NCBI GenBank assembly: GCA_964023275.1
Contig: OZ029925.1
Location: 9,913,719-9,977,718, forward strand
Source: Norana najaformis
Taxonomy: Eukaryota > Annelida > Clitellata > Crassiclitellata > Hormogastridae
DNA length: 64,000 nucleotides
Reading direction: 5' to 3'
Shown here: piece by piece, positions 27,801 to 64,000 of the stretch
Position numbering within the stretch: the stretch's first letter is position 1
Layout of the letters: every line of letters begins with the position of its first letter
The notes under the pieces: model-generated
The model's database searches: none
Told to the model about the DNA's origin: nothing
Seen by the model: the letters and a program-made list of their open reading frames with translations, nothing else
Program-made: the position numbers and the translations under genes

Positions 27801-29490
27801 ACTTGGTACTAGTCCTAACTGTTTTAGAGATGCCAATACACCCTGCATACACAGCAGGCTCAGGGATCTCAACTGATTCTGTACAAGGGCTTATGCTTTG
27901 GGAATGTAGTTTTCCTTAGACACAACCATCAGTTGGTGTCTTGCACATCATGATAATGGGGGCTATAGAATTTTCCAGATTAGATTGGACTCCAAGATTT
28001 AACTGTACATAGAATTTGTTACCTTTTGATTCTGTGATGCTAAGACAAGCTGAGTAGCTACCAGTTGATCGGAAGGTCAATTTGTTACCTTTTGATTCTG
28101 TGATGCTAAGACAAGCTGAGTAGCTACCAGTTGATCAGAAGGTCAATTTGTTACCTTTTGATTCTGTGATGCTAAGACAAGCTGAGTAGCTACCAGTTGA
28201 TCAGAAGGTCAATTTGTTACCTTTTGATTCTGTGATGCTAAGACAAGCTGAGTAGCTACCAGTTGATCAGAAGGTCAATTTGTTACCTTTTGATTCTGTG
28301 ATGCTAAGACAAGCTGAGTAGCTACCAGTTGATCAGAAGGTCAATTTGTTACCTTTTGATTCTGTGATGCTAAGACAAGCTGAGTAGCTACCAGTTGATC
28401 GGAAGGTCAATTTGTTACCTTTTGATTCTGTGATGCTAAGACAAGCTGAGTAGCTACCAGTTGATCAGAAGGTCAATTTGTTACCTTTTGATTCTGTGAT
28501 GCTAAGACAAGCTGAGTAGCTACATAGAATTTGTTACCTTTTGATTCTGTGATGCTAAGACAAGCTGAGTAGCTACCAGTTGATCGGCAGGTCCCAGGAT
28601 GGTCTCTTGTTCGTTCCTGTGAAGTCCATGTTTACGAAACAATTGCATAAAGAATTCAACTACAGTGGCTGGAACTTCCATGGAGCTAAGGCCAATCATT
28701 ATTAATTGAGAACTATCTAAAACATCAAATATCAAAGGGGTTTTACATAGGACTCAGTTTTGTCTATCAATTGAATATTATAATCAAGTCAGAGACATAA
28801 AATAATATTCAACCAAACTGAAATAAAACTATCACTTTTGCATCAGTTTTAACTGCTGATCTCCGACTAACTCACTGGCCATGCCAGCTCCTGGTTCTGT
28901 ATTGCTGTTGACACCCATACTATGTTTTTCTGTCCTCTATAAATTATCTACAAAGAACTGCCCCTGACAGATTATCCCTTGCAGAAATGTCATTTGAAGA
29001 CAAACTGTCCTATACTGAATTGTTTACCTATTGGAATTCGACCTGGATTCTCCAGTGGATTAATATTTTTGATGGTGATTTCACTTGAAGTGACCATCAA
29101 CCGATACAAAGGGCATTATGATAACAGTGCTAAAGAAGTCTTTAGATTATAGATTAAAGAAGTCTTTAGATTAGTTTTCCATACCTCGGCCTTCTTGCTG
29201 AAGGTATTCAGTTGCTTTGTTGGTAACTAAGCTAGTAATACCAGATCCTTCACAGCAGGAGACAATAAAAACCTTGCGATTCAGGCTTGATGCCCGATCA
29301 TTTGCCAGACACTCCATTTTCTGAAGCAAAAGAAAAAATAATGAATACAATTTTTTCCAATCATCTGGGGCTGAATGCTCACATAGCAGGAAATGGTCTC
29401 CAATACATATAAAACCATCAAAAGAACCCATCCACGGCCAACACTTATTTTTGAAACACTCGTTCACGTATGGAGGATGAAGAATGGACA
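21573..29490 (-). CDS. PARPBP: PARI / PARPBP, PCNA-interacting UvrD-like antirecombinase
   Basis: PARI is known in vertebrates as a PCNA-bound, Srs2-like inhibitor of homologous recombination. I assemble 11 coding exons (minus, 5' to 3'): 29185-29490, 28538-28716, 27164-27460, 26720-26908, 26005-26169, 24969-25123, 24236-24401, 23643-23818, 23018-23099, 22483-22580 and 21573-21879. All phases agree, giving about 706 codons. The family hallmark is NSRNELGLARVINVPDRKL plus FTDIKHEANKRNLSMYQ, the UvrD domain-2 segment; GRRTLRAIRTLLD follows. The protein ends QQNLNTFFRI, a PCNA-binding PIP box (Q-x-x-L-x-x-F-F). Helicase ATPase motifs are decayed (GSGIT for GSGKT; LVCNPRD for the Walker B segment). 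An in-frame ATG at 28681 would give about 592 residues, near the vertebrate length; the first exon adds about 100 residues and needs an upstream start I cannot see. One intron uses a GC donor. Confidence 0.9.
22483..22580 (-). CDS. PARPBP: PARI exon 10, GC splice donor
   Basis: KLSLQNQLHFDWASSDFMSS and on to AHHVR. The donor reads AAG/gcaagt. The GT alternative (CAC/gtgcga) would put an early TAA in the last exon, so the GC donor is required by frame. Confidence 0.85.
23018..23099 (-). CDS. PARPBP: PARI exon 9
   Basis: 27 codons: SPEECNEPCLADRLTKRTSV and KESQAKG. Acceptor caacag, donor gtaagt; phase 2 to 0. Confidence 0.8.
23643..23818 (-). CDS. PARPBP: PARI exon 8
   Basis: GRRTLRAIRTLLDHFASLPQ matches the GRDTVKALLVLLDEEA region of human PARI. 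Acceptor ttgcag, donor gtaaga; phase 0 to 2. Confidence 0.9.
24236..24401 (-). CDS. PARPBP: PARI exon 7
   Basis: SAIKRVLNVIKANIVRGSSR continues the helical domain. Acceptor tgaag, donor gtaggt; phase 2 to 0. Confidence 0.85.
24969..25123 (-). CDS. PARPBP: PARI exon 6
   Basis: IRLGGKSYAPEKDCQLMQHS, then FMDKLQTIIEEDL, matching the ELGGKGYAP...FIDKL segment of vertebrate PARI. Acceptor tttctag, donor gtgagc; phase 0 to 2. Confidence 0.93.
25585..25755 (-). repeat. tRNA-derived SINE copy (family A)
   Basis: On the minus strand, a head with gggttcaagcctcctgaga, then a core ending in catggcacttaataaatgca. Same family as 2092-2260, in the PARI intron between exons 5 and 6. Confidence 0.75.
26005..26169 (-). 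CDS. PARPBP: PARI exon 5: signature UvrD domain-2 segment
   Basis: FLAYLELLINSRNELGLARV and INVPDRKLDHSAFTDIKH are the strongest PARI match in the window. Acceptor tttag, donor gtctat; phase 0 to 0. Confidence 0.95.
26720..26908 (-). CDS. PARPBP: PARI exon 4
   Basis: 63 codons, starting RILICELAKGKECAILSMSV and then Ser/Thr/Glu-rich linker. Acceptor ttacag, donor gtgagt; phase 0 to 0. Weakly conserved, so called from frame and splice sites. Confidence 0.8.
27164..27460 (-). CDS. PARPBP: PARI exon 3
   Basis: 99 codons; FSKFIGNYNSFLRHCNSVDW matches PARI/UvrD (Y...F......DF), and FLVCNPRDGFVE sits where the Walker B DEFQD would be. Acceptor ttttag, donor gtaagc; phase 0 to 0. Confidence 0.9.
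28021..28590 (-). repeat. 66-bp minisatellite copied from the end of PARI exon 2 and its splice donor
   Basis: Units start at 28021, 28087, 28153, 28219, 28285, 28351, 28417 and 28483 (the last truncated to 53 bp), followed by the exon itself from 28536. Each unit carries about 48 bp of coding sequence (DQLVATQLVLASQNQK) plus donor gtaaca and about 12 bp of intron. Copies differ by one or two bases (tgatcgg/tgatcag). Confidence 0.95.
28538..28716 (-). CDS. PARPBP: PARI exon 2: motif Ia-like region and following helices
   Basis: Encodes DSSQLIMIGLSSMEVPATVV (position of UvrD motif Ia) and ETILGPADQLVATQLVLASQ. Candidate ATG at 28681. Its 3' end and donor gtaaca are the source of the 66-bp minisatellite just downstream in the intron. 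Confidence 0.85.
29185..29490 (-). CDS. PARPBP: PARI exon 1 (first recognised): decayed Walker A region
   Basis: 101 codons open with KVFIVSCCEGSGITSLVTNK, which lines up with the UvrD P-loop but has Ile in place of the catalytic Lys. Acceptor gttcag, donor gtatgg; phase 1 joins exactly to the next exon. No start codon is inside. Confidence 0.7.
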
Positions 29491-32745: not shown

Positions 32746-33059
32746 GTGACTTAAGTATATTGTCAGCTCAAGCGCTAAGAGTTGAAAAGAGAGTTAAAAG
32801 GTAGAGTTTAAAAACGGAGTAAACAAACCAGATTTACAAATGCTATTGAGCGCGGCTGACAGGACCCCGAAATATCCCCACATAATCAACAAATTGCAGA
32901 CCGTGATAGAAACTTTCGAGGCGGCGAAATTATTATTTGGATGACCAACAATAATTATATTAATATTATATATCATATACTATATATTATATTAATATTA
33001 TATATTATATACTATATATTATATCAATATTATATATTATATTAATAATTATATTGTGG

Positions 33060-33295
33060 TCTCTTGGTAGTCCCTCGCGTCCGCACTACAACTGCCCAGT
33101 CCAGGAGCTTTGCCTTTGTTGGCCCTTCCAGCTGGAACTCCCTTCCTCTTGAACTGCGGCTTCAGTTACTTAGTCTCTCTTCTACCCAGTCTCGCAAACG
33201 CCTGAAATCCATTTTGTTTGTTCAAGTCGGGAGCGCCACTGTTTCCTAAGTGGCGCTTTATAAATGTTCGTTTACAATTTACAATTACAATTTAC
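33060..33295 (+). mobile_element. 3' end of a CR1/Rex-like retrotransposon
   Basis: The frame reads TTTAQSRSFAFVGPSSWNSL then RKRLKSILF, stop, and a tail gcgctttataaatgttcg plus acaattt repeats. It is close to the copy at 61196-61430, so the family moved recently. Confidence 0.75.
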
Positions 33296-34676: not shown

Positions 34677-35069
34677 GCAATTCTTAGCGTCGGACTCATC
34701 TACATATACCCACGAATATACCTCGGCAAGCAACGGACGCCGCCGCTGGGGCCTTGCGTAGAGTGGGCAGCGGGCGTTTAGGCCTTTAAGCTTATTTAGG
34801 CCATCAGTACCACACACGCAGTCTGATGATATCGGATGTCTGTATAAAATGATACTCGAAGATACATCTTAATACGACGAGGCACGAGTGTGGTCGTTAG
34901 GTGATAAGCCGAAAGCCGAAGAAGCCACCTAGCGTCCAGCTGAGATAATATCGCTAATAGCGCCGATATAACCGTAAGTGGGTTCGTTTCGACCGACGTC
35001 TAATTAATTAGGCTTATTTAATTAATTGCGACGGAGCGGTTCGTCGTAACGTGTGCTGCAGCTTCGACT

Positions 35070-35439
35070 ATGCAGGGGAGAGACGCCTTGGCGCAGCTGA
35101 GCGCGCCTCGCGGGCCGTCAACTAGGACTCTGGCACCCTCGGTCTTCGGCTGGGTCTCCGATGCGGGAGACGGGACCCGTGTGCCCGGATGGTGCCGGGT
35201 CGGTCCGATCGGGGCCCCTCTGGCCGTTCCCCCGTCGCCGACCACCGCCACCGCAGCTCCCGGGAGCCACGCGGCGGGCGGGCCGTCCGTCGGCGACCAA
35301 GGAGGACGCAGTGCGAAGAGGATGGAGCCGCGGATACGGCGACCGATGAATGCGTTCATGGTCTGGGCGAAGGCGGAGAGAAGGAGGCTGGCCGAAGAGT
35401 ATCCGGATGTACACAACGCTGACCTCAGCAAACTGCTCG
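35070..35439 (+). CDS. SoxF: SoxF exon 1: N-terminus and first half of HMG box
   Basis: Gly/Pro/Ala-rich N-terminal 84 residues, then [20 protein letters not shown] and DLSKLL. Donor G/gtaaga; ends phase 1 inside a Gly codon. Confidence 0.92.
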
Positions 35440-38400
35440 GTAAGACAGGGCTTACCTTGATTGGCTTCGATTACTTCAATTAGACATAATCTACTATGCT
35501 GTTATTACGCATATATGCAGCGCTGCTATATAATGATATCGTAGCCGTGCTGCAGCGCCTTTGTGAGTTACTTAAAAGGCGCTTTATAAAGTTAGTGTTA
35601 CATGCATACATACATGCATACATACATGAATACATACATACACACATATATATACACACATACATACACACATACATACACACGCATACATACATACATA
35701 CATACTTACATACATACATACACTGTGTCCGGAAAAATTCCAAGGCTCTAAAATATGAATGAAAAAAACTATAGTAGATAATAATCAATTTAAAAATTTA
35801 AAAACCTTTTTGATCCGTACATAATTACCAACAAAATTCTTTGCAATTTATTAACGGCCCCGTTTAAAATTACGTCACAGTGACGTATTTGAATTTTATA
35901 TTTTGTAAAGAAAGTTGCTAGAAAAATGGCGTTCAGCGAGGAAGACAGTTAGTCAGTGGCGTGTACGTCTCGAAGCTTGCGTTGAAGCCAATGGCGGACA
36001 TTTTGAACATAAATTATAGTTCAATAATATTTCAGGATTAAACTGTTTTTGGAATTTTAAAAATCGATTAATGTTTACTAATTATTTTCATATTTACCGT
36101 AAAGCCTTGGAATTTTTCCGGACACAGTGTACATAATGAATACGCCTCAATCGATTGTGCTAAGCAACTAACTGTCAGTGAAGGACTTAATCGGAGTCTT
36201 TACACGACGACTGTCCGCAGTGAGCGACTCGAACCCGTACTCTGCGCGTTACAAGACGAGCGCTTAACCAATCGGCCACTGACCGTGCATTTTCAGTTGG
36301 AAAGTCAGACGACGTGTAAAAAAATTGGCCACACCCTCCATCATATGCCGAAGCTTACAAAAAAGTCGTTAACATTTCATGCAGGTGGTCGCCTCTCCGG
36401 GTTAGCTGAGAGAACTGCGCTTGCACTTCTTGTTCTTCGTCTTGTTGCTCTTGTTCTTGTTCTTCTTATTCGTCTAGTTCTTGTTCTTTATTCATGTTTT
36501 CTCCTTGTTCTTGTTGTTGTTCTTTTCCCTTTGTTCTTGTTCTTCTTCTCAGGGTTTGTTTAGACAGGGCAGCCGTTTCCCTTTTCTCATTGTTCCTCTT
36601 CTGACTTATCCCGGACTGAGCTTAACTTAACAGCGGCGTCATCCACTGATGCCAATGCAACATTGCTATGGCGCTATAGAACTTATTAGATTAGATTAGA
36701 TTTACTGTTCACTGTTGCTCGTTCATTCGCTATCTTGCATGGTCTGCGTGTGTCTGCCCGCATGACTGCGTATCTGTACGTGTGTATATGTGTCTGTGTA
36801 TGTCTGTCTGTATAGGGACCTTGATCAAGTCCTTCAGTCACAAATGCTTTGCGCCTGATATTCAGATTTAAGCCTATTGAATAATAATAATAATGATGAT
36901 AATGATAATGATGATGATGATAATAATAATAATAATAATATTAATAATAATCTGTCTGCTCGAAGGCTGGTTACTGCTATGATGTAGTTATTGCTAAATC
37001 AGTGCTTCTTATTGGAGAAAATTCTTTAAAGTCTCTGTTATTGAAATCTATCGATATTGCTACCGGACATTTACACGTATTTCCGGTGACAATGAAGAGT
37101 CTAAACTTAGAAACCATCTGTTTCAACTTGCTTATCCACCTTAACCTGATTTCTGGTTTCCCAACGGAGAAGTCTTCTGTTGAGTTTATTCTCTGAGAGG
37201 AGCTTTATAAATCTTAAATTATAATTACAATTACAAAAAGTCAATTTGACTGCGGTTTTACTTGAAAGATGGACCATCGATTGATACCTTATGCATTATG
37301 ATAACGGAGCTACAAAAGTCGCTGTAGCTTAGACAGATCTTTTGTGATGCTGTTGCACGTGTGCTGCTGTTGCTGATATCAATGCCGAGGCCAAGTCTAG
37401 TTGTTGTCTGATGCAACTGGACCGCAACATTTTCCGTCAGTCGCGAGACCCCTTATTCGATAGTCGTTGACCGCCGTCGCCTGCATTTCGTTCTTAATTG
37501 GCGCCATCTTAATTGATATTAATTGTCTTAAGTCTGCTATAATTGCCGGCGGAAAGTGTCGGCAGCATTTGGCAGGAGCAGCAGCGATTCGGTAACCTCG
37601 CCGAGCGATGATTATCCGGAGGCATCCGGCTGACAATTCAGCCATCGGCTGACAATTCAGCCATCGGCTATCGTGTTTTATGTTGGACCACCTGTTTCCG
37701 CCGATGACTCTCAACCCGCAGGTGGTCTGCTGACCTCACTTGGTCGCTTAGCTCGGGCTTGATTGCCTCTCAGCCGGCGATGGTTACTCGACACTCGGTG
37801 CCTCGTGTGCTGCAGCGGTCGTTGCTGCTGGGCTCTCTTCGTCACTGCGTCTTTCCGGTTCGAATCGTGGAATGTGAAAGTGTTGTCGATTTATAAATGC
37901 AACCCGAATGAAGAGTTGTCCTGTTGCCATGAATGAGATCAGCTGTCCCGTTGCTGTGAATGGCAAGTTGTTCAGATGCTGTGAATGACGATTTGTCCCG
38001 TTGCTATGAGTGAGAAGGTTGTCCCGTTGCCGTAAATGACAACTGATCCTGTTGTTATTAATGAGATAATTTAGTTCAGTTGGTATGAAGGACAAGTTGT
38101 TCAGTTGCTGTTCTTGTGTTTGTGGTTTATCCGAAAAGCCTCCAACTTGAAGGCCGCTCTAGCCGACCTTCCTTTTTCTTAGCCTCGGCATATGAGGACG
38201 GGTGGCCAGCCATCTCCTTCGCCGCCTGATTTTCCGACTAACAGTTTACGGTCATTATATCCATTTTACAGCTGAGCTCACTAGGGAGCGCACGTGGAGC
38301 CGAAATATCGAAACAAATTTCTGCCCTGGCGAAGAGTTGAACCCCGACCTCGAGGTTGAGAGTCGAACACACTAACCACTAGACTATCGCGCTTCTAATT

Positions 38401-41400
38401 GTAATAGCGACAATTTATATAGCACCGTTAGCAGTGAGCTACTAAGCCTTTTAGAGTGCTTTACTACTTCAGTTGTCGGTTAGGCCTACGCTAGAAGTAG
38501 TTCGCTATAGACGATGCTCTGGCTGAAAATCGGCTGAGGTAGCTCGGCGCATGAGATGACAATGGTGTCAATAACGATTGTTCAAACATCAATGGAAAAA
38601 CCCCGGAAACATCTTCAAGGATTTTAGGCTGAAGTACGGAACAAAATTGATTTAGTAGTCGCTTACTGACATATATGTATATGACATATGTATGTGTGTA
38701 TGTATGTATGTATGTATGTATGTATGTATGTATGTATGTATGTATGTATGTATGTATGTATGTATGTGTATGTATTTATGTATGTATGTATTTATGTATG
38801 TATGTATGTATGTATGCATGTATGTATGTATGTATGTGTGTATGTATGTATGTATGTATGTATGTATGTATGTATTTATGTATGTGTGTATGTAGGTATG
38901 TATGTACGTATGTATGTATGTATGTGTGTATGTATGTATGTGTATGTATGTATGTATGTGTGTATGTATGTATGTATGTGTGTATGTATGTATGTATGTA
39001 TTTATGTGTGTATGTATGTATCTGAGCAATTATACAGTGCCTTTCACGTAGCTCTCAAAAGCGTAGGAACATGGCAATCTAACAGTTCTAAAAGGTGTGT
39101 CTTAAGTTAAGCTGAAAATAGTTCACGTGCATTAGTTTCATAAGTTCGGATTTCCAGCGGAAGATTGTATCACAGAAAGATGGTGAAATAGATGAGTAAG
39201 CGTGCTGTGCTCGAACTGCAGCTATTGTAGACCAGGCGGATCAAGGACTGGAAGACAGACCTCCCTTATGTATTCCGTGGCCGTCCCAACTATGGTTGCT
39301 CGTCCCAAGAACAGGATCTTGAATCGAATTCTTTACTCAACAGGAAGCCAGTGTTTCTCGCAAAAAGCCCGGAAGCATTTGAGCGATGTTCCGCAGGTCG
39401 GATTGGCTGCCTGTAACAGCGGAAAATCAATCTTTGCACTTTTGATTCAGATGCAGTGCATGTTATTTAATTAGATTAGATTAGAGTAGATCAGACCAGA
39501 TTAGATTATGTCAGGGTTGTTTAAGGTGAGGCCGGCCAAGACTATACTGGGCTGGATTGGCCCAGAATGGGCTAGATTAGACACGATAAGACAGAACTCT
39601 TGTCCCTCGTTGGTTTAGATTATAAAGTACATGACAGTGTAAATTAAGATCAGATTAGATCAAGCCATCGCAGATACAATGATATCAGATCGAATTGGAT
39701 TATAAGTCGATTAGAATGAGTCGCATCGGACGAGAAGACGCCTTAAGTAGATGCATTTCCGTTTCAGGTAGCAATTGGCGGAAGCTGTCCTTGGTTGCTA
39801 AGCGACCGTTCGTCGAGGAGGCCGAGCGGCTGCGGGTACAGCATATGACGGAGCATCCTGACTACAAGTACCGTCCTCGACGGAGGAAGCATCCTCGCCG
39901 GGCGACCAGAGCCAAGACGCCGCTCGCAGCGTCCTCCTGCAACTCCGCTCCGTCCCCGGCCTCCAAGGCGCCTCGCCTGGCTGCCTCGACGGACAGGACG
40001 ACACCAGGGGAACCGATGGACGACTCAGCTAGACAGGACACAGTTCCGGGGAGTGGAGGCGACGGGAGGCAGCGGTCGACGACGGCCTCCGTCCTTGATA
40101 CACCCGAGTCGTCGCCTAGAACGACCCCTGTTCAACGTAAACCAGCCCGATCTCAGAGACCCTCATCCACGGCCGTCGTAAAGGCAGGGAGGGTCAGACA
40201 AATGTCGTCGACGAATGGGTTCAGCGGAGCACTTCAGCTTCCCAAAGGTACCGGAAGTTGCCCCTTTCCCGCAACTGGCGGACTGATATCGCCCGATATG
40301 TCCCCTGCTATTGAACCACCGGACAGTTTCCCTGGTTTTTCCATGCAGACGGAATGTGCTGCTCCATACTACGCCACTTCCTCCTCATCCTTCTCGTCTT
40401 ATCCACATCAGGCGTTCATGTTTGACCAGCGGTTGTCATGTCGATTGCCACTCCACAGACAGATGTCTTGTCCGGGAGACACGAGGACCCTTCAGCAGAA
40501 CGCCTACAGGTCCAGCGCCGCCGCCGCCGCCGCTGCCGCTCAGTGGCGGACAGACTTCGAAACGTGCTACCCAGATCGAGGACGAGGATTTCAACATCCG
40601 GGCCAGTGGAAGGCGGAATTCAACAAATCCTGCGAGAGTTCCGCCGGAGTCCTTCGCAGCCTGGTTTTCGGTCCTACTACTGCGTTCCAGCAACAGTTCA
40701 GTCAGGTGGATAACCCTCAGGGACGCCTTCAGCACTTCTCCTACGCCGCCATGCAACGTCCTGTTGGCGGTCCATACGGTTTGAATCATCGGAAGGTGGA
40801 CAACTTGGTCCCTTCTTCTAGGTACGGCTACAATTCGGTCTCTTCGCAGGCAAATCCTTTTTCGTGTGCTGTATTTCGAGAGAAGGAGGAACGGCAGGAA
40901 CTGAATCATCAGTTCCAAGCGCATCATCAGCAGCCGGAATACATCCTCCTTCACCAGCTGTCGCAGGACGAAGGTCTGGCTGATGTCGATTCCAAAGAAC
41001 TTGATCAATACCTCGGCGTTCACACTGAAATGATATCGTCCAATACAGGAGGAGGAAATGGAATGGGAAGAGAGGAGGGCGGAGGAATGAACTCTTCCGC
41101 TGAGAGGTATTTTGATCCTTCTCAACCTGAATCCTCCTTTCGTTCGTTTGCTTTCTATTCGTCCGATGGACTTCCGCAGGACCACTTCATTTCCGGTTCT
41201 GCTGTCAATGCAACGCAGATCATCAATAGCGTGAAATCCCCTCTGAAGAATGACGTCATGGATGACGTCGACGGACACAAAACCTGCGAAGAAGCGACGC
41301 GGAGAATGATTTGTTCGCAGGGAGACTTAACCGTAGACCTGACCTCGCCTCTTGCGGGTTCACGGGATGGCCGTTCCATCCTTCAAGGAGCCCCGTCCTG

Positions 41401-41746
41401 CGCCCAGAACCCTACAAGTTGCGGGGACAGTGCGAACGATCGGGACAAAGAACAGAACGCCGCAAGTTCGACTCCTGCCTTAACGGAATCTACAGGACGA
41501 GTGGGTGACGCTGACTTTCTCGAATGTTCAGCCGGATCTCGGTCATCGGAACGGGTTTCGGCGAAGGTTCTGGACCTGACTCCTCTACAGGAACAGCTGC
41601 GCGCCTGCATCGCTGCTTCCTACCTGGGTCCAGAGGAGGAGGACTTTGATTCCGACTACGATTTCACGGGTGCTGATATGAACCGGTTTGGATTCTGTGC
41701 GGCTCTTTCCGACGCTCCGCCATTTTTTCAGTCGGAACTCATCTGA
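35070..41746 (+). CDS. SoxF: SoxF-group HMG-box transcription factor
   Basis: A nuclear DNA-binding regulator of the Sox7/17/18 group. CDS is 35070-35439 joined to 39768-41746, 782 residues. The HMG box spans about residues 88-166: [20 protein letters not shown], then KLLG/SNW across the intron, then [20 protein letters not shown] and YKYRPRRRK. The [11 protein letters not shown] and YKYRPRRRK segments are SoxF hallmarks, and an intron within the HMG box is known in SoxF genes. Near residue 530, [10 protein letters not shown] resembles the beta-catenin-binding DxxEFEQYL motif of SoxF proteins. The rest is Ser/Pro/Gln/Ala-rich, with a poly-Ala run near residue 370. Vertebrate SoxF proteins are about 380-420 residues, so this one is long. 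An in-frame ATG at 35322 just before the box is an alternative start. Confidence 0.93.
35600..35720. repeat. ACAT tetranucleotide array
   Basis: catacatacatg and catacacaca tract in the SoxF intron, running up to the TA that flanks the mariner-like element. Confidence 0.9.
35721..36129 (+). mobile_element. Internally deleted Tc1/mariner-like element
   Basis: A 409-bp element with 27-bp perfect terminal inverted repeats starting cactgtgtccggaaaaattc and flanked by TA on both sides (35719-35720, 36130-36131). Inside, ATGGCGTTCAGCGAGGAAGA reads MAFSEED, and soon after [17 protein letters not shown] with a stop reads like the C-terminus of a Tc1/IS630-type transposase. The middle of the gene is gone, so this is a non-autonomous derivative. 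Confidence 0.85.
36132..36290 (-). repeat. tRNA-derived SINE copy (family A)
   Basis: Minus-strand head with B-box gggttcgagtcgc, then a core with caatcgattg. It abuts the right end of the mariner-like element. Confidence 0.7.
36415..36560 (+). repeat. CTTGTT-type pyrimidine-rich repeat
   Basis: Imperfect ttgttcttgttctt tract in the SoxF intron, followed by ordinary sequence. Confidence 0.85.
36880..36955. repeat. AATAAT/GATGAT trinucleotide repeat
   Basis: aataataatgatgataatga tract in the SoxF intron. Confidence 0.9.
37050..37230 (+). mobile_element. Possible retrotransposon 3' tail
   Basis: Ends ggagctttataaatcttaaa and attacaattacaa, like the LINE tails at 33060 and 61196, after a frame that weakly fits a reverse-transcriptase C-terminus. 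Degenerate. Confidence 0.35.
37905..38112 (+). repeat. Degenerate minisatellite, about 28-30 bp x 7
   Basis: Units of the type gttgtcccgttgctatgaat repeat with many substitutions through the SoxF intron. A perfect 22-bp duplication (ggctgacaattcagccatc) sits nearby at 37628-37670. Confidence 0.75.
38270..38420 (-). repeat. Degenerate tRNA-headed SINE
   Basis: Minus-strand tRNA-like head with gttcgactctcaacctcgag, related in layout to family A and followed by tatatagcaccg. Confidence 0.5.
38672..39020. repeat. TGTA tetranucleotide array, about 350 bp
   Basis: Long tgtatgtatgta array with occasional TTTA, TGTG and GTAG variants, the longest microsatellite in the window. It makes repeat-encoded open frames on both strands. 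Confidence 0.97.
39035..39480 (+). repeat. Degenerate interspersed repeat
   Basis: Starts tatacagtgcctttcacgta and continues with text resembling the element at 30600-31010 (cagtgaattcctaagccg-type segment). Non-coding. Confidence 0.4.
39768..41746 (+). CDS. SoxF: SoxF exon 2: second half of HMG box to stop
   Basis: Acceptor tttcag; the first bases complete the Gly codon and read [20 protein letters not shown]. 659 codons follow to TGA at 41744-41746, ending in an acidic Asp/Glu/Tyr-rich segment and FFQSELI. The frame is open upstream of the acceptor, but that part is intron. Confidence 0.93.
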
Positions 41747-55100: not shown

Positions 55101-58100
55101 GTATCCGCTTCAGCTGACAAGTCGACAGACCTACCAGCAAGCCATCTGTAAACGAGGGTCACTTCTGGCCCACTTATAAACAAGGGTCACTTCTAGTTCA
55201 CCACCCAAATACTTATACATTAATAATAAATTTATATAAATTTAAAGAAAAAATATTTAAGAATTGTATTTCTTTAGATTTAGGTTTTACTGATTTTAGC
55301 CTACAAATTCTAAACTCTTTAGATTGTAATCAGATTTTAAATCTCTGTCTAACAAGAAGAATAAGAAGGAGGAAGAAATAGGAAGAGGAAAGATATGATT
55401 TCCTTTAGATCTTAATTTTTTCTAGATTTAACTTTAAATTGTCAAACTCTTTAGATTTTAAAATAGAGTTTAAACTTCTTTTAGACAAGAAGAAGAAGGA
55501 AGAAAAAAAGGAAGCTGATGAAGTGAATTCTTTACGATTTTGATATTTTACACTCTTAAGCTTTAAACAAAATTTAACATTCTTTGTTAAAAAATTTTTT
55601 TAGAATTCTTTCTGCCAAGAAGAAGAAGAGGAAGAAAGAAGAGAACATAGTTTTTCATGTCTTTAAACTATTCTATCGTCTCCACACAATTTAAGACGCT
55701 TTCAGTATCCATTCTCACGCTTTATCTACATGTTACAAAATGCTTTCATTAGTAAGATTTCAATATTCTTACAATTTCTACGAGTTCAACATACGAATCC
55801 GCCAGAACCCGCCCTTGTTTTGAGGTGGGCCAGAACCCGCCCTTATCTTACTGCTATTAGCTGTTGAATTCAGCCACTTGCCTAAAAATAGCAATCAGCA
55901 GATTCAGGAGAAGAACGTTCGAGATGAGCAAATAGATTCCGAGAAGTACGTACGCCGCCCATTCATAGCAGTAGATCCGGGTCCCACTCGCATGCATCGA
56001 GTCCTTCTCTGCCATCGCTTGGCAAGAAAGATTGCTAACCGGGCGTCCTAAAACAGACCGTATAGGTGCAGGTAGTGTTTCAAAGTCTCTCTACTATGTA
56101 CGACAAACAACTACTATTGGAGATCTTTGTACGAACTTTATCATAGTTTCACTGTTCCTTTAAAATAGGTAACAACGTTAGAACCAAATACTGTTCTCTT
56201 CAAGAAGAAACTAACTCAAACTCAAGCCTGATTTTAAATCCGAACACTTGAAACGATAGGCAATCCCTCAACTAGTTCATTGGTGCAAAGTTAGGCCCGG
56301 AACCAAAAATTCAAACAAGGAAGTCGAATATAGGAACAATGAAGTATGCACCATTTGACATTTTATACGCTTAGTTACATGTACTAGCAGAATAATTTTT
56401 GTTGAGATATAGAAGGGTTTGGTCAAGAAAATTCGTTCTACCACTGGCACTCTGTCAATAGACTTAGAACTCACCCATTCCAGGGTCATCGTCAAGAAAC
56501 ACCTCTCCAAACATTTCCCAGTAGGGTCGGTAAAGAATGTCGGCAAACGTAGACCACGAAGGAATCTGATTTGGATTAAGGATGGCCTGGAATGCAACGC
56601 CGAAGCTGACGACGAAGACAGCCAACACCACCAGGAACTTTATCAACTCAGCGAACTACGAAGTCAACAGTCGTCATTTTAACCAACGTCATCAACGTCA
56701 TCGTCATCTTTATCGTCATCGTCACCACCACCACCCAAAATATGCACATAAGCTACTCGAAAACTCCACTGAAGTTGGAAATCGATGAAAGTGACAGGCA
56801 TATAGAACTCTGAAAAGACGAAATTGTCCAAAGAATTCATCATTGAATAAGGTAACCAACAAAGTCATCATGTGCAATGCTATCAATGGCAGAATAAGCC
56901 GCATGAGTTGCAAAGGCAAGTCCCGAGCTGAGGCGGCAGTAGCAAATGATTAGGTAAATTATTCATCATGCATGCTTAGTGCATTAATAATCCGTCCAGA
57001 ATCGTTAAATATTTTATGCCATTTATTGATGCAAACCCTTTTTATTGTTCACTTACATGCAAAAATATTTGACAACTATCTCCTGGAAATAGGGACTGGA
57101 TCTAGTATAAGCTAGTAGTTTTCATCCCTCCTGTTGCGATGTACTTAGCACCTTAATGTTTTGATTGTGAGCTGTTCCTTTCGTGCAATAAAGATTTTCT
57201 GATTTTAAAAAATTATATTTTTTAAATTTTTAGCCGGACTTGAGTCTCTTTGGGTTGATCTTCTTAGCACTAGCATCAACAGTTAAACTTGAAGTGATTC
57301 TAAGTAGTTCTATTGTTACTGATGATTCAATAAATGGCTTTGAATTGAAAAAGAGATCAACTGCTGATCTCACCATCATTTGGATAGCGATGATTCTCGG
57401 TCCAAGTTTGGCCAGAACATACCAGAACCTCAGCAACCGGCAATAGCAGAAAATGACTGTCACAGCGAAGAAGATTCGCGCCATCTGGAACGTTTCTAGG
57501 GGCAACGCGAAACGCAGAGCAAAGGACACGAGGAACAACATGACTATGACGGGGTCCATTCTGTTCCAACGACCGCAACGAAGGTACAGCTCTACCATGT
57601 ACAGGTCCATTCGAAGCTTCTCGTACGGATGCCAGATGGTGTTGTTCAGTTTAACATTTTCGAGGCGGGACGTCGGTCCAGCATCGGATACGGTTGCAAG
57701 CTTCATAATTAACACATGGAAAGAAACAATACTTCTAAACATACACATCTACAATGCTGCATGGTCGCTATTACAGCGATTACATAATTCATCGTTGAAG
57801 ACATATCTAGGTTGGGCATATATCCAGTCTCCTGAATAGTTGCGCTGTCCGATGCAAAAACGCGGTAACTTTAAGACCTTAATGTTCGTGCGTAATTGCC
57901 TTTCCCCTAATTTCCTTTATCTAAGGAAGTTGTGTATCTCTGTCTCAGGCCTACTTGGCCCGTTAACCTTTTCATTTTCCTGCGCAAGGTGACCAGGTTG
58001 TTCCATATGCCCTAATTTTCACATTGCAGCATAGAAGCTTCGTAGTGATTACAACTGAATTATCTCAGCACTTTTATTTAACCGAATGTCGGTGAACAAG

Positions 58101-58876
58101 CTGGATTTCTTGACGAAGCCTCTGTATGACGCTGAACAATTACCGGGTTCTATAACTCAATTTTAGAGTTATAACTAAGCAATTTAAGAGATCTAGTTAG
58201 TCATGATCTGATGGTGTGTACCTGAACTATTTCCTCGACGATTAATGTCAGTTCCCAAAACATGACTATCCACTCAGAGACCGCGATTTCAGAGAACGAA
58301 GAGAACGGTTTCAGATCAGTCAGAACGTAATATGACAACAGACCAAGAAAGCAAAGATAGGAACACTGTCAACCAGAAACAAAAGACTAGTAGGTTATCA
58401 GTTATAAAAAGCGTTCTTAATCAACAGATACAGACAGAGCTACTCATAGACAAAGCATTGAATAGCCAGTTTATGTACAGATGTGACGTAAAACCTAACG
58501 AAACAATTACTCAGTTTAAAATTCCTTTTGCAAATCAAGTGCAAGCCCTTGTAGTAAATGTATAAAATATCAGAATTTGTCTATAGTTTTACAAGCAACC
58601 AATATGGCTTTATAAACATACAATATATATTAAAAGCTCCGGCTGTTCGATAGCCCTCGTCACACATGGGTCAGAGCAATAGAGTTTGACCTGCGCCTCC
58701 TAAATTTCTGACTGCACCCAATCAGAATAGAGTGGCTCGCAAGTGTTGCGACAACAGCAACGCTCCAGCGAATGGAACCCCACAGATGATGAGGGTGATG
58801 ATGATGCGGAGGAGTAGGACAAAGAAGAAGAGGAAGAAGAAGAGGAAGAAGAAGAGGAAGAAGAAGAGGAAGAAGA

Positions 58877-58907
<31 letters not shown>

Positions 58908-61900
58908 AAGGAGGAGAAGGATGACGATGATGATGATGAAGACGAGAAGATGCATGTAATCTTGAAACTTAAAGATCACTGCTCCAACATTTAAGAGTCA
59001 CATTTATTTTAGTACATGGGCAAACCGTAATCTGTTCTTATCAGCCATAATTGCTTTGACATTAAACCTGCACACAATCCTCTCAAATCGTATGCATATA
59101 CCATCCTTGCGTAGAATTTGGTGACCGGAGCTGTGTAGTAGGACTGGAGCTTCTCGAACGCACCATCTGATTTGGTCTTTTTGCGCTTCTTCTCCAAGTA
59201 CTTGAGCGGCGATCCATCAAAATGAATAGACGGAATAACGAAAAACGGAGTCAAGAAAGGAATCGACTGAAATCAATAATCCAACTAAGTTAGACTGCAT
59301 ACAGTTGTTCGCCTGAGCTGTAAATGCATGATAAGCCCATAATATGCTGCTGTAATTCTAGTGGTTAAATTCGGCCGAATAGGGCCAGATCTTAGATCCG
59401 GCACCCGACGTTCTACTTTCGGAGATTTAAATCTCTCCGGCTAGGACGATCCGTAAACGAGGACCAAACCTGCGTGGCGCCCATTAAAATGAGCAGCGGT
59501 GGTAAAGGATCTCACCCGATTATTTCGAGGTTTTATGGTCGCTATAGAAAAACGTTCACATTTAGAGCCTACATTTACTCTTAGTTCTATTACAGAAGAC
59601 CAAAGAATTCCCACCTGGCACCGATACTCCTAAAGCAACCTCACTTATGGAGACTTGATTTGATTTTGGTCAATAAATAAGCTGGTCTATCTGACGCAGC
59701 TTTTCTATGGCACTTGGAAATTTTGGGGATTCACGTTTACATTAACCTTTTTAGGCTTACACCTATAGCCTGTTAAGATGTACCTTCCAGAAGGGCGTTT
59801 CGACCGCCATGTTTCCTTTCCAGACCTTCTGGAGGTAAGTTTGACAACAGGAGTGGCTCATGAAGTCCATGGCCTCAGCGTCGTCGGCAATGAGGAGGGG
59901 AGTGACGCAAGAGCCAAGATCAAAGGGCAACTCGCTGATCAGAACGCGATAAGCTTCGTCCACGTCCGTATTGTACATGTTATCAAGAATTTCAATTGCA
60001 ACCTTCTGAAAATGGCTGAAAATAACCAGTTAACTAATTTTTAAACAATTTCAATAGAAAATGGCTAAGAATAATCAGTTTTTTGGTCATCTTTCAAACA
60101 ATTCTAATCGAAAATAGCTGAAAGTGTAAATTTATCTCCATCTCAGACAAAGGACACGAGGAACAACATGACTATAAACGGCAGATTTAGATAATAAAAG
60201 GATTTATAAATGAATGTAGAGGTTGATAATAGCTCATGCAACTGGCACATTAATATATGCGCAATATAAATGACAGGCCTCCGTCTGAGTAGATATCTGA
60301 TGTTGTCTTACTCCGCCGCTGATTGCAGAGTAGCTTTCAGTTTCTCTTCGTAGAATTTGCTCGAATAGAACGCAAGCTTCGAATACAACTTGAAAGCCAG
60401 AAGTGAAGCACCTGTGACAAGGAATAGTAGAATATTATTGTTCCAACAACATATCAGTTGATAAAGCAATGTTGTTAATTGTTTAAGTTCATCATCAAGC
60501 CAATAATTAATTAATCACTTTCAAATTCTAACAAAAGCATTTCCACATAACAAAGAAACCTATTGGTTGATGCTATACAATTTTTTTATGAAGTGTTACT
60601 ATGTGACATGATGGGTTAGCCCTGTGGATCGTTTACAATGCTGTTAATCTTTCAATGTTAGAAAACTTTGCATTTGCAACAGTGAACTTCAGTTTAATTT
60701 GGCACCAACACAGTTTTGAAAAGTAATATCAAGGTCATTCCACATATAGGATCCATATCTAGGACTCCTCAGTCCTTTTTGTGCTTCAGCCCTTTGGAAT
60801 AAAAGATACTTGATTACTTTAATCTATACATTTTGTGTAGCTAAAAGTGTAGTGTTCAGCACCTGTCATTTATAGATGCCGCTAGGATTTCCAGGGAAAG
60901 TTATTTCATCTATGACGAAAAGGGTAACGATTGGCTTATTTTTCTCACTGTTACACATTTATGTAAGCATTAATGCATGTATCTGACTATTTGTATAGTG
61001 CCTTTATAACACAAATGCGCTAATTATTATCAGTGTCTAAAAGCTGAACGTCATGTATCCAACACAACCGCATTCTTGCACTCAATGGATTCTCTTGCAT
61101 GCGTCAGTCGTTCTCAAGCAATCTTACTTGCGTACTCGTACTCTTCAACCGTACCCTCGTTGCCTGCCCATGCCTCCCTTCCCTCAGCTACCCGTGGTTC
61201 TTGGTAGTCCCTCGCGTCCGCACTACGACTGCCCAGTCCAGGAGTTTTGCCTTTGTTGGCCCTTCCAGCTGGAACTGCCTTTCTCTTTAGCTGCGGCTTC
61301 AGTTACTAGTCTCTCTCCTACCCAGTCTCGCAAACGCCTGAAATCCTTTTTGCTTGTTCAATTCGGGAGCGCCACTGTTTCCTAAGTGGCGCTTTACAAA
61401 TGTTCGTTTACAATTACAATTACAATTACCCGTTTCATGCCGTTAAACCCATGGTGAGTTCACATCTTAAATTTAGACTACCCGTGGCCGAAATGTCGCA
61501 ACTTTTTGAGCTTATTAAGCTTTTGGACCTATAAACCTGTCCTAATCTTAATATGTATGCTGAAATTCTTTTAATCTATAGGCCAAAATTTGTTCCCTAG
61601 GTAAGAAAATGCTTTCAACTTCACGGGAACTGAGACGAACCCATGACTGTGGCTTTGCCCTGGACCCTAATGCGGCTTTCCCCAGACTTCCACTTATCCC
61701 TCTATGAACACCCCCAATTTAAAATTTAAATTTACACAACACCTGAAGTTCTGCAATGTATTCTGTCACAGGCTAATCATAGGCTACTATAATGCGTATT
61801 GCATTATATACGAATGTAGGGCCTATATATCCAAGCACTTGTTTAGCACAGTTTAAAAACTTCCCAAAGGCGTTGTAACATAATTCTCTAACAACACAAT

Positions 61901-64000
61901 GTTTATTGTGTTGTTTATTGTGTTGTTCGTGGCAGAAGAGTGAAAATTTTCTATGGAAGATTATTCCAGATAGAACGGCAAGTGCAAGGTAAAGCACGAG
62001 GGACCATATATGATCAGACGACTGGAAAAGGATTATTTGAAGATCGACACTTACCGAGTGGCGCAGGCGTCTGCATGAGAAAGAACTGCGTCACGTCTGG
62101 TTTGGCAGCAAGAACTGACCAGAGGAACAGGTGCCACAGTTCATCCTTCTTCTCAAACGGCACATACTTCGTCACGTCTACAGCCATTCAACATGCATGC
62201 GTCGATTTAAAGACGCAATTTACCTCCATACAAATGAACATTCGGGTAATGAAATTGCAGAAGTTTTCTACAGATAGACAAGGTTAGGCTAATGAGCGAA
62301 ATATTTGAAACTTCTTCATAACCAACAGAATTTCAACAGCTGAATATGTTGATCAATCAACGGCAAACAGTGAATTTCACCTGTCACATTGGGAATCAAA
62401 CCTCGAATATAATATTCCTAGATGACTTACACTGTCTTTGAGATTGTGATCTATGCAGCAATATGCTTAGACATGTGTGCGTGGATAGGCTGTGGCGCTG
62501 TCTCGCGAATAATATGAGATTTGTTGCTTTCATGGCCTGTAGCTAATGAGAAAGGGAAGGGAGGAAATGACACAAGGAGGGGTAGGGCGAACGGAAGAAA
62601 AGGGAGAAAAGAAGGATGATGGAAATATAGGCACATAGTACTTTTGCGTTGGCTTATCTTAGACCTATAAGATGTTTGGAGTGGTTAGCTAAGAAAATGC
62701 TTTCAACTTCAAGGGAACTGAGACGAACCCATGACTGTTGCTTTGCCTTGGACCCTAATGCGGCTTTCCCCAGACTTCCACTTATCCCTCTATGAACACC
62801 CCCAATTTAAAATTTAAATTTACACAACACCTGAAGTTCTGCAATGTATTCTGTCACAGGCTAATCATAGGCTACTATAATGCGTATTGCATTATATACG
62901 AATGTAGGGCCTATATATCCAAGCACTTGTTTAGCACAGTTTAAAAACTTCCCAAAGGCGTTGTAACATTACTCTCTAAAAACACAATGTTTATTGTGTT
63001 GTTTATTGTGTTGTTCGTGGCAGAAGAGTGAAAATTTTCTATGGAAGATTATCCCAGATAGAACGGCAAGTGCAAGGTAAAGCACGAGGGACCATATATG
63101 ATCAGACGACTGGAAAAGGATTATTTGAAGATCGACACTTACCGAGTGGCGTAGGCGTCTGCGTTAGAAAGAACTGCTTCACGTCTGGTTTGGCAACAAG
63201 AACTGACCAGAGGAACAGATGCCACAGTTCATCCTTCTCCTCAAACGGCACATACTTCGTCACGTCTACAGGCATTCAACATGCATGCGTCGATTTAAAG
63301 ACGCAATTTACCTCCATACAAATGAACACTCGGGTAATGAAATTGCAGAAGTTTTCTACAGATAGACAAGGTTAGGCTAATGAGCGAAATATTTGAAACT
63401 TCTTCATAACCAACAGAATTTCAACAGCTGAATATGTTGATCAATCAACGGCAAACTGTGAATTTCACCTGTCACATTGGGAATCGAACCTCGAATATAA
63501 TATTCCTAGATGACTTACACTGTCTTTGAGATTGTGATCTATGTAGCAATATACTTAGACATGTGTGCGTGGTTAGGCTGTGGCGCTGGCTCGCGAATAA
63601 TATGAGATTTGTTGCTTTCTTGGCCTGTAGCTAACGAGAAAGGGAAGGGAGGAAATGACACAAGGAGGGGTAGGGCGAACGGAAGAAGAGGGAGAAAAGA
63701 AGGGTGATGGAAATATAGGCACATAGTACTTTTGCGTTGGCTTATCTTAGACCTATAAGATGTTTGGAGCGGTTTATAAGCCAATGTGATTGCGTGTTAA
63801 TGTTTGTAGCCCAGCATAGTTTTGCTGTTTATTTCATGTAGGCTTAAGTTTATGCATGCCAATATGCATTTTAACGGTTGTGTGGCGAATTTAATAAAAC
63901 TCAGAGGAAGTTATTAGATCTGATTTAAAGCACATACATGCATTGTATGAATAGTTGACTGACCAGAATATTTCGCTTCCTGATACATGAGCTTGTATCT
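52041..64000 (-). CDS. TRPM: TRPM-family cation channel, partial at both ends
   Basis: Encodes a plasma-membrane TRPM channel subunit. Exons, 5' to 3' on the minus strand: 63964-64000 (cut by the window), 63143-63265, 62055-62177, 60312-60411, 59784-60015, 59102-59266, 58222-58365, 57374-57700, 56475-56655, 55882-56047, 53251-53444 and 52041-52115; all phases agree. They cover the last TRPM homology region (DELWHLFLWSVL; AIEILDNMYNTDVDEAYRVL), pre-S1 (YYTAPVTKFYARM), S1-S2, S3-S5 (ARIFFAVTVIFCYCRLLRFW and LGPRIIAIQMM), the pore (PYWEMFGEVFLDDD), S6 (LLISNVLLLNLLIAIF) and the TRP helix (VWRFNLYYLIQEFF, then WLPPPLSIL). The exons at 63143 and 62055 are near-identical tandem copies, probably alternatives. 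The S6 exon uses a GC donor. The remaining N-terminus is right of the window, and the C-terminal exons left of 52041 were not found. The pore resembles TRPM1/3/6/7 while the S4-S5 stretch looks more like TRPM2/8, so I give no paralogue. Confidence 0.93.
52455..52570 (+). repeat. SINE family C-like fragment
   Basis: atatttctcagcgccaatgc, then gagaccagcttatttaccgg; a diverged copy in a TRPM intron. Confidence 0.55.
53251..53444 (-). CDS. TRPM: TRPM exon: TRP helix
   Basis: KVYDDIHAKSHKVWRFNLYY, LIQEFFYEEWLPPPLSILAH; the VWRF...YEEW.PPPL pattern is the TRPM TRP-domain signature. Acceptor cttcag, donor gtgagt; phase 2 to 1. Confidence 0.93.
53515..53640 (+). repeat. GGTAA-type degenerate satellite
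   Basis: taaggtaaagtaaggtaagg and similar units, same motif class as 7640-7995. In the TRPM intron next to the TRP-helix exon. Confidence 0.75.
54230..54345 (+). repeat. SINE-like fragment (family D)
   Basis: gacttctatagcgccgttat, then gcatcaatcgatg; related to 13808-13905. Confidence 0.65.
54650..55110 (+). mobile_element. Interspersed retroposon with degenerate coding text
   Basis: Starts aataataagacaatttatat and tagcgcatagcacagccgat, then a stretch reading like ..RALNMSRDGAFVKWSGRLFH.. with stops. Inferred old LINE/SINE 3' end inside the foldback element. Confidence 0.5.
55330..55640 (+). repeat. Purine-rich AGA tracts
   Basis: Several aagaagaagga tracts separated by AT-rich text with tttagatttta repeats. 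Confidence 0.75.
55882..56047 (-). CDS. TRPM: TRPM exon: post-pore loop and S6, GC splice donor
   Basis: A loop with two Cys residues, then YVLLGIYLLISNVLLLNLLI and AIF. The donor reads TAG/gcaagt; it joins in phase to the TRP-helix exon (AIFS/KVYDD). Confidence 0.93.
56475..56655 (-). CDS. TRPM: TRPM exon: S5 and pore
   Basis: FLVVLAVFVVSFGVAFQAIL (S5), NPNQIPSW and PYWEMFGEVFLDDDPGMG (pore helix, filter region with acidic residues). Acceptor cgtag, donor gtgagt; phase 0 to 1. Confidence 0.95.
57374..57700 (-). CDS. TRPM: TRPM exon: S2-S3 linker to S4-S5 linker
   Basis: MDPVIVMLFLVSFALRFALP (S3), ARIFFAVTVIFCYCRLLRFW (S4) and YVLAKLGPRIIAIQMM (linker). 109 codons, acceptor atgaag, donor gtgaga; phase 0 to 0. 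Confidence 0.95.
58222..58365 (-). CDS. TRPM: TRPM exon: S1-S2
   Basis: CSYLCFLGLLSYYVLTDLKP (S1) and EWIVMFWELTLIVEEIVQ (S2). Acceptor gacag, donor gtacac; phase 0 to 0. Confidence 0.9.
58815..58945 (+). repeat. Pure purine tract, 15-bp unit
   Basis: aagaagaggaagaag units run for about 100 bp without a pyrimidine, then GAT repeats. In the TRPM intron between the pre-S1 and S1-S2 exons. It makes repeat-encoded Lys/Arg or Phe/Leu frames. Confidence 0.95.
59102..59266 (-). CDS. TRPM: TRPM exon: pre-S1 and start of S1
   Basis: SIPFLTPFFVIPSIHFDGSP, a Lys-rich linker, then SYYTAPVTKFYARM. Acceptor tttcag, donor gtatat; phase 0 to 0. Confidence 0.92.
59395..59545 (+). repeat. Dispersed repeat, family E copy 2
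   Basis: Shares agcggtggtaaaggatctca context with 32590-32745. Confidence 0.65.
59784..60015 (-). CDS. TRPM: TRPM exon: cytoplasmic helices before pre-S1
   Basis: HFQKVAIEILDNMYNTDVDE, then FMSHSCCQTYLQKVWKGNM. I used the acceptor at 60016; a second AG nine bases further in would break the phase. Donor gtacat. Confidence 0.9.
60148..60175 (+). repeat. 28-bp copy of TRPM S3 exon sequence in an intron
   Basis: Identical to 57520-57547 inside the S3-S4 exon (begins caaaggacacgaggaacaac). Same orientation, 2.6 kb upstream in the gene. Confidence 0.8.
60312..60411 (-). CDS. TRPM: TRPM exon: end of homology region
   Basis: ASLLAFKLYSKLAFYSSKFY, then EEKLKATLQSAA. Acceptor tcacag, donor gtaaga; phase 1 to 2. 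Confidence 0.88.
61196..61430 (+). mobile_element. 3' end of a CR1/Rex-like retrotransposon
   Basis: RTTTAQSRSFAFVGPSSWNC, RKRLKSFLLVQ, stop, then gcgctttacaaatgttcg and acaatt repeats. Near-identical to 33060-33295. Confidence 0.75.
61598..62685. repeat. Tandem duplication unit 1 (1,088 bp)
   Basis: Carries TRPM exon copy A and flanking intron. It matches 62686-63773 at a constant offset of 1,088 bp with about 2-3% substitutions and no obvious indels. Confidence 0.93.
62055..62177 (-). CDS. TRPM: TRPM duplicated exon, copy A
   Basis: 123 bp, phase 1-1. Reads VTKYVPFEKKDELWHLFLWS then VLAAKPDVTQFFLMQTPAPL. Intact acceptor ctgtag and donor gtaagt. It is downstream of copy B in the gene. Confidence 0.88.
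62686..63773. repeat. Tandem duplication unit 2 (1,088 bp)
   Basis: Carries TRPM exon copy B. It follows unit 1 directly; similarity starts at tag.taagaaaatg and ends at gatgtttggag.ggtt. Confidence 0.93.
63143..63265 (-). CDS. TRPM: TRPM duplicated exon, copy B
   Basis: 123 bp, phase 1-1. Reads VTKYVPFEEKDELWHLFLWS then VLVAKPDVKQFFLTQTPTPL. Intact acceptor ctgtag and donor gtaagt. Differs from copy A at 7 bases, 5 of them changing amino acids. Confidence 0.85.
63964..64000 (-). CDS. TRPM: TRPM exon cut by the window edge
   Basis: Reads YKLMYQEAKYS before donor gtcagt. It ends phase 1, matching both following exon copies (Asp codon). Confidence 0.75.

Follow-up and report, generated by a model that had tools for sequence, protein, structure and literature searches.

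What does it mean that a gene for a TRPM channel in the annelid Norana najaformis holds the same 123-bp exon twice, in two adjoining units of 1,088 bp? The locus lies on contig OZ029925.1 of assembly GCA_964023275.1 (608,420,607 bases as 17 contigs), within a stretch of 64 kb that we refer to as the window (C13:9913719-9977718, C13 being this contig); coordinates are window-based unless given with a contig, and about 39 kb beyond the window were also read (a 103-kb extended stretch). The reading we favour, with moderate confidence, is that a single intron-exon-intron segment was duplicated in tandem, really and recently, in one member of a tandem pair of TRPM2-like genes; the downstream exon (B) would be kept, the upstream exon (A) would be optional and inclusion of both would be allowed, in a pair that is not strictly mutually exclusive. 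The duplication is present in the assembled sequence, from which we infer its presence on the chromosome.

The two units form a direct repeat, adjoin directly without indels at an offset of 1,088 bp, and have the edges (61598..63773) given in an earlier reading made from the letters alone (the sequence-only reading). The units and their exons are as follows:

61598..62685, no strand assigned: unit B of the duplication (1,088 bp), the later of the two in the transcript (downstream), direct repeat
62686..63773, no strand assigned: unit A of the duplication (1,088 bp), the earlier of the two in the transcript (upstream), different from unit B at 28 positions
62055..62177, minus strand: exon B, 123 bp, phase 1-1, with the sister gene's amino acid kept at all 4 of the A/B replacement sites that could be polarised
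63143..63265, minus strand: exon A, 123 bp, phase 1-1, with four derived replacements and one derived silent change

Over the whole unit, the 28 mismatches (2.6%) comprise 16 transitions and 12 transversions, and a gap-free alignment of 61602-62681 with 62690-63769 contains 26 mismatches. A BLAST search of the window with one unit returned itself and the other unit only (97.4%, E=0), and self-comparison of the window revealed this pair as its sole two-copy tandem on the kilobase scale. The introns of the two units are 97.8% identical. The self-match has a length of 1,089, with one base (T) of microhomology at the unit junction as read from the letters, and there are no N letters in the 64-kb window or in the 103-kb extended stretch, hence none between the unit copies.

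Each unit contains an intact exon, as previously proposed: exons A and B are each open in one reading frame, share phase 1-1 and the donor GTAAGT, and differ in their acceptors only at position -7. The earlier description of their splice sites as good stands for the donors, which fit 7 of 9 consensus positions and are joint best among the nine exons scored in the gene, but not for the acceptors, which lie at the low end (9 pyrimidines of 16 in exon A and 8 in exon B, compared with 8-14 in the seven other scored exons). The minus-strand exons E1 (which ends at 63964) through E8 stay in frame whether they are joined through A, B, both copies or neither copy, in line with the claim that a symmetric exon would keep the frame in single or double use, and the flanking junctions suggested at 63964 and 60411 are consistent with this joined frame. 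An intronic block of 40 nt, located 18-57 nt upstream of each acceptor (62195-62234 and 63283-63322), has the same letters in A, B and the sister gene described below, is better conserved than the remaining intron and contains a 6-bp hairpin (TGCGTC...GACGCA). This conserved block is possibly a splicing element.

The other exons of the gene that we could place are:

63964..64000, minus strand: 3' part of exon E1 (whole exon to 64063, beyond the window; 100 bp), donor GTCAGT
60312..60411, minus strand: exon E3, next downstream of the pair
59784..60015, minus strand: exon E4
59102..59266, minus strand: exon E5, pre-S1 and start of S1
58222..58365, minus strand: exon E6, S1-S2 region
57374..57700, minus strand: exon E7, S2-S4 region (Ion_trans)
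56475..56655, minus strand: exon E8, S5 and pore

An S6-like reading frame was identified by eye at about 55880-56090; on the minus strand, near 55881, this exon apparently ends in AG followed by GCAAGT, a possible GC donor. Joined with exon B into a fragment of 436 residues, the exons matched TRPM channels in the PDB (among the best 60 of 63 distinct sequences; best match at E=1.4e-43 with 6co7, whose depositors call it TRPM member-like 2). The fragment scored 51.2 bits against PF25508 (TRPM2-like domain; cut-off 27) and 26.6 bits against PF00520 (Ion_trans; cut-off 25), and thus contains both a TRPM2-like (MHR3/4) region and a six-helix ion-channel region, which bears out the earlier assignment to the N-terminal cytoplasmic homology region of a TRPM gene. 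The duplicated exon is located within the TRPM2-like domain, ahead of the membrane part. The score of this domain was 52.8 bits when A was included, 53.8 when B was, 58.4 for the two together and 32.4 when both were left out, and since the scores with A and with B are about equal, neither copy looks broken. The exon peptide alone matched no Pfam family and no PDB sequence, and one scan of viral_contigs with the E4 peptide (76 residues) returned 24 pattern matches and no relative.

In TRPM8, according to a review (PMC10301734), MHR3 and MHR4 are built of helix-turn-helix motifs. A single-sequence AlphaFold model of exon B presents helices at residues 7-23 and 28-35 (mean pLDDT 74.1, pTM 0.34). 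The 123-bp exon would thus amount to about one helix-turn-helix of the cytoplasmic MHR3/MHR4, with the region assigned by homology and the helices taken from the exon B model alone; if one exon corresponds to one helix pair, inclusion of both A and B would therefore add one.

Querying the genome with the exon region returned three places: A, B and C13:9999886-10000168, the last at 86% identity. The third belongs to a sister TRPM gene that lies in tandem with this one at a distance of about 23 kb (C13:9995-10001 kb; about 81.3-88.8 kb in window-based coordinates). E0, E1, E3-E8 and the duplicated exon all have counterparts in the sister gene, that of the duplicated exon being single and 126 bp long. 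The sister sequence is 82% identical to the unit, from unit position 118 onward. Among the matches listed (at least 30), the full unit occurs twice in the 17 contigs of the assembly, and elsewhere it is represented only by the 82% sister place and by short dispersed pieces. A protein search gave at least 38 matches, with other TRPM-like exons on contigs C7, C6, C10, C11 and others; among the 38 best candidates, the duplicated exon was found at three places only, and the gene on C7 encodes its region once, inside a larger exon (aligned by eye). A and B are therefore adjoining homologous exons of equal length and phase in one gene, derived from a single ancestral exon, as judged from the one counterpart exon of the sister gene and the single coding of the region in the C7 gene. 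Because the sister gene has a single counterpart within the same exon series, the unit duplication is, by this comparison, younger than the TRPM gene pair, in agreement with the youth attributed to it by the sequence-only reading.

The left edge of the duplication falls inside an intronic stretch of about 1.15 kb (60565-61714) that has no match in the sister gene. Within this stretch lies a 237-bp dispersed repeat (61194-61427), 94% identical to 33056-33292. Where the E0 acceptors of the two genes align, the sister gene has GG in place of AG, and where E0 begins is uncertain in both genes; in the present gene, E0 and further upstream frames are situated beyond the window. A mobile-element origin of the whole unit was rejected: among the best candidates scored, the full unit was found twice, with one sister counterpart at 82%, and dispersed matches cover only unit positions of about 195-372 and 836-1018. 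Another TRPM gene was likewise considered as a source of exon A by gene conversion, and no donor was seen among the 38 best-candidate matches, which place the exon at the three sites named above.

The direction of change between the copies was assessed with the sister gene, about 82% identical over the unit, as the sole outgroup. Outside the exon, 11 changes map to B and 5 to A, with 5 ambiguous; within the exon, 5 map to A and 1 to B, with 1 ambiguous (A/V between the copies, D in the sister gene). By codon, exon A has four replacements (K>E, T>K, M>T, A>T) and a silent change, and the single change in exon B is silent. Because all 4 polarisable replacements lie in exon A, with the ancestral residue held by exon B at each, exon B is by this polarity the copy nearer the ancestor, and the upstream exon A has changed faster. 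Relative to its own non-exon sequence, exon A shows an excess of about 8-fold (5/123 versus 5/965, Fisher p=0.0027, uncorrected), with p=0.0057, 0.0070 and 0.020 under three other treatments of the ambiguous sites, and exon B is without excess (p=1.0). Between the two exons, NG86 estimates are 0.056 for replacement changes (dN) and 0.077 for silent changes (dS); for the remaining exons joined, compared between this gene and its sister, they are 0.060 and 0.125.

These same figures bear on the possibility that exon A is inert, drifts free of constraint and is skipped in most transcripts. Replacement and silent differences between the copies stand at 5:2, which matches an absence of constraint (about 5.1-5.3 replacements of 7 expected), the polarisable replacements all fall on A, and A carries a lysine where three PDB-matched TRPM sequences and the C7 gene have alanine (aligned by eye). 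Drift, however, predicts that exon A would change at the rate of its own introns, which it exceeds by the margin given above; moreover, the splice sites of A are equal to or slightly better than those of B, and nothing seen marks A for skipping. We regard an inert exon A as unlikely.

Several observations weigh against a young duplication with exon B retained. Polarity was read from one outgroup only about 82% identical, the tests are few, uncorrected and based on small counts, and the plain contrast in polarity between the exon and the rest of the unit has p=0.056. Exon B differs from the sister exon in 8 of 41 codons (dN 0.11, dS 0.38) and is hence not strongly conserved, with exon A differing in 12 of 41; the duplicated exon and E5 are among the most diverged of the gene pair (82-86%, compared with 90-97% for the other exons); and without both exons the TRPM2-like domain still scores above the Pfam cut-off of 27 bits. 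Finally, the divergence of 2.6% between the units could be allelic, as it lies within the range shown by heterozygous animals.

This last point leads to the explanation that the sequence-only reading had named as the main alternative, an assembly artefact in which two alleles of a single-copy segment were placed end to end. The differences between the units are uneven, with a run of 222 bp that contains none (p=0.046), as would occur in recombining haplotypes, and false duplications, which are frequent in older assemblies, lie on one scaffold in 7-24% of cases (PMC9516828). Alleles, however, should differ less in exon than in intron, whereas here the exon is more divergent than the remainder of the unit (7/123 versus 21/965, p=0.031), an excess with p=0.033 at equal exon and intron rates and p=0.001 at an exon rate half of that of the intron. 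The replacements are also one-sided, and the copies adjoin without gap or N in an assembly of only 17 contigs; a gap between copies, one mark of a false heterotype duplication, was looked for and not encountered in the form of N letters. Other two-copy tandems on the kilobase scale were absent from 20 sampled stretches of 10 kb, a small sample in which 3 stretches presented arrays with periods of 105-188 bp. The contiguity and the pattern of divergence thus weaken the case for a haplotype join, which we consider improbable.

If the duplication is real, the use of the two exons becomes the central question, and the sequence-only reading had suggested that they might be mutually exclusive. Equal length and phase and the homology of neighbouring exons fit such a pair. 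None of the devices that enforce mutual exclusion (steric spacer, mixture of U2 and U12 sites, frame-based decay, docking/selector pairing) was encountered in a search that covered pairing among the flanking introns and, farther away, the inverted repeat around E1. The spacer between exons A and B measures 965 nt, all sites are GT-AG, and the exon, at 123 bp (3 x 41), keeps the frame when both copies are included. Docking/selector pairing was assessed by ungapped complementarity scores against 100 dinucleotide shuffles per pair, over a span that ended at E1. Twelve pairings were formed from the unit introns and the intron parts to their left and right, and in all 12 the best complementarity did not exceed what the shuffles gave; the lowest numbers of shuffles that reached the score (9 and 12 of 100) belong to a 13-bp match of the upstream part of each unit with the right intron.

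Longer-range complementarity is found in an inverted repeat with an arm in each unit:

62433..62615, no strand assigned: inverted-repeat arm in unit B, other arm at 64380-64575 (window-based), beyond the window
63521..63703, no strand assigned: inverted-repeat arm in unit A, same inverted repeat, outer arm at 64380-64575

The outer arm, located beyond E1, is an inverted copy of unit positions 836-1018 with 75-77% identity. Its predicted duplex has -223 kcal/mol with the A arm and -211 with the B arm, compared with a mean of -79.5 and a lowest value of -96.8 when the outer arm was mononucleotide-shuffled 20 times and paired with the A arm. An inverted repeat is arranged in this way around E1 in the sister gene too (predicted -252), and by this comparison the unit duplication copied one arm of an older inverted repeat. 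This is the starting situation from which competing RNA structures have been proposed to arise (Ivanov and Pervouchine; PMC6071210) and to that extent would favour mutual exclusion. Both pairings, however, would loop out E1, an exon of 100 bp whose skipping would break the frame, and B would be excluded by neither of them. The arm consists in part of a dispersed repeat, and the inverted repeat around E1 is more likely incidental than a switch. A truly mutually exclusive pair is, on balance, highly improbable. Inverted repeats around an exon can favour its circularisation.

In the reading we favour, exon B would stay as the required, more ancestral exon, and exon A would act as an optional extra. 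Messenger RNAs that contain only B and others that contain A+B, and so encode 41 more residues, would both be produced, and A-only mRNA might occur because the B acceptor is slightly weaker; the pair would not be wired for strict mutual exclusion. A bolder version, which we hold to be quite unlikely, is that positive selection acts on A as an additional helix-turn-helix, by which the MHR3/4 stack would become longer when A+B are included, the duplicated inverted-repeat arm giving rise to competing RNA structures before safeguards of mutual exclusion exist.

Elsewhere in the window, open frames at 35022-35483 and 39683-41746, both on the plus strand, encode an HMG box between them, the first its front (profile positions 2-37) and the second its back (36-69), and are probably two exons of one gene, presumably Sox-like. 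An open frame at 8533-8988 (plus strand) encodes the last part of an Ion_trans domain (PF00520, E=2.5e-09) and belongs to a second ion-channel gene, and a 66-bp unit is arrayed in 7.7 copies with 99% match at 28013-28593. Rfam and tRNA scans of the window gave 0 matches.

Tandem exon duplication in animal genes is a well-known kind of event, reportedly described by Kondrashov and Koonin in 2001 and by Letunic in 2002, and the value of this case lies in its youth and in its single-exon sister gene. Near-identical introns and a sister about 23 kb away constitute a built-in control, and the pair lets one ask what comes first after exon duplication: double inclusion, copy loss or mutual exclusion. 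An additional cytoplasmic helix pair in an ion channel might also alter gating. No TRPM exon pair of this kind was found in the literature searched, coverage of which was partial.

Among known systems, false heterotype duplications (PMC9516828) resemble the TRPM pair in that one scaffold carries two similar copies whose divergence is allele-like, but the TRPM copies lack a gap and their changes are one-sided and concentrated in the exon. The ICF variants of TRPM3 exon 13 (PMC7027284, PMC6583685) likewise involve splicing of a short in-frame piece of the N-terminal cytoplasmic part, with channel function altered in TRPM3; they differ in being a ten-residue deletion inside a mammalian exon, with no duplicated exon. 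Mutually exclusive clusters of the docking/selector type, such as Dscam and others (PMC6071210), share an origin by tandem duplication and the copying of one intronic stem arm, whereas the TRPM pair is without intron pairing above shuffles next to its exons, has an inverted repeat that encloses the preceding exon and permits double inclusion in frame. In the tandem exon duplications of animal genes (PMC9013439), as in the TRPM pair, homologous exons of equal length and phase adjoin and the flanking intron is copied as well; the TRPM pair is set apart from them by being very young, with introns 97.8% identical, and by the single-exon sister gene that lies adjacent to it.
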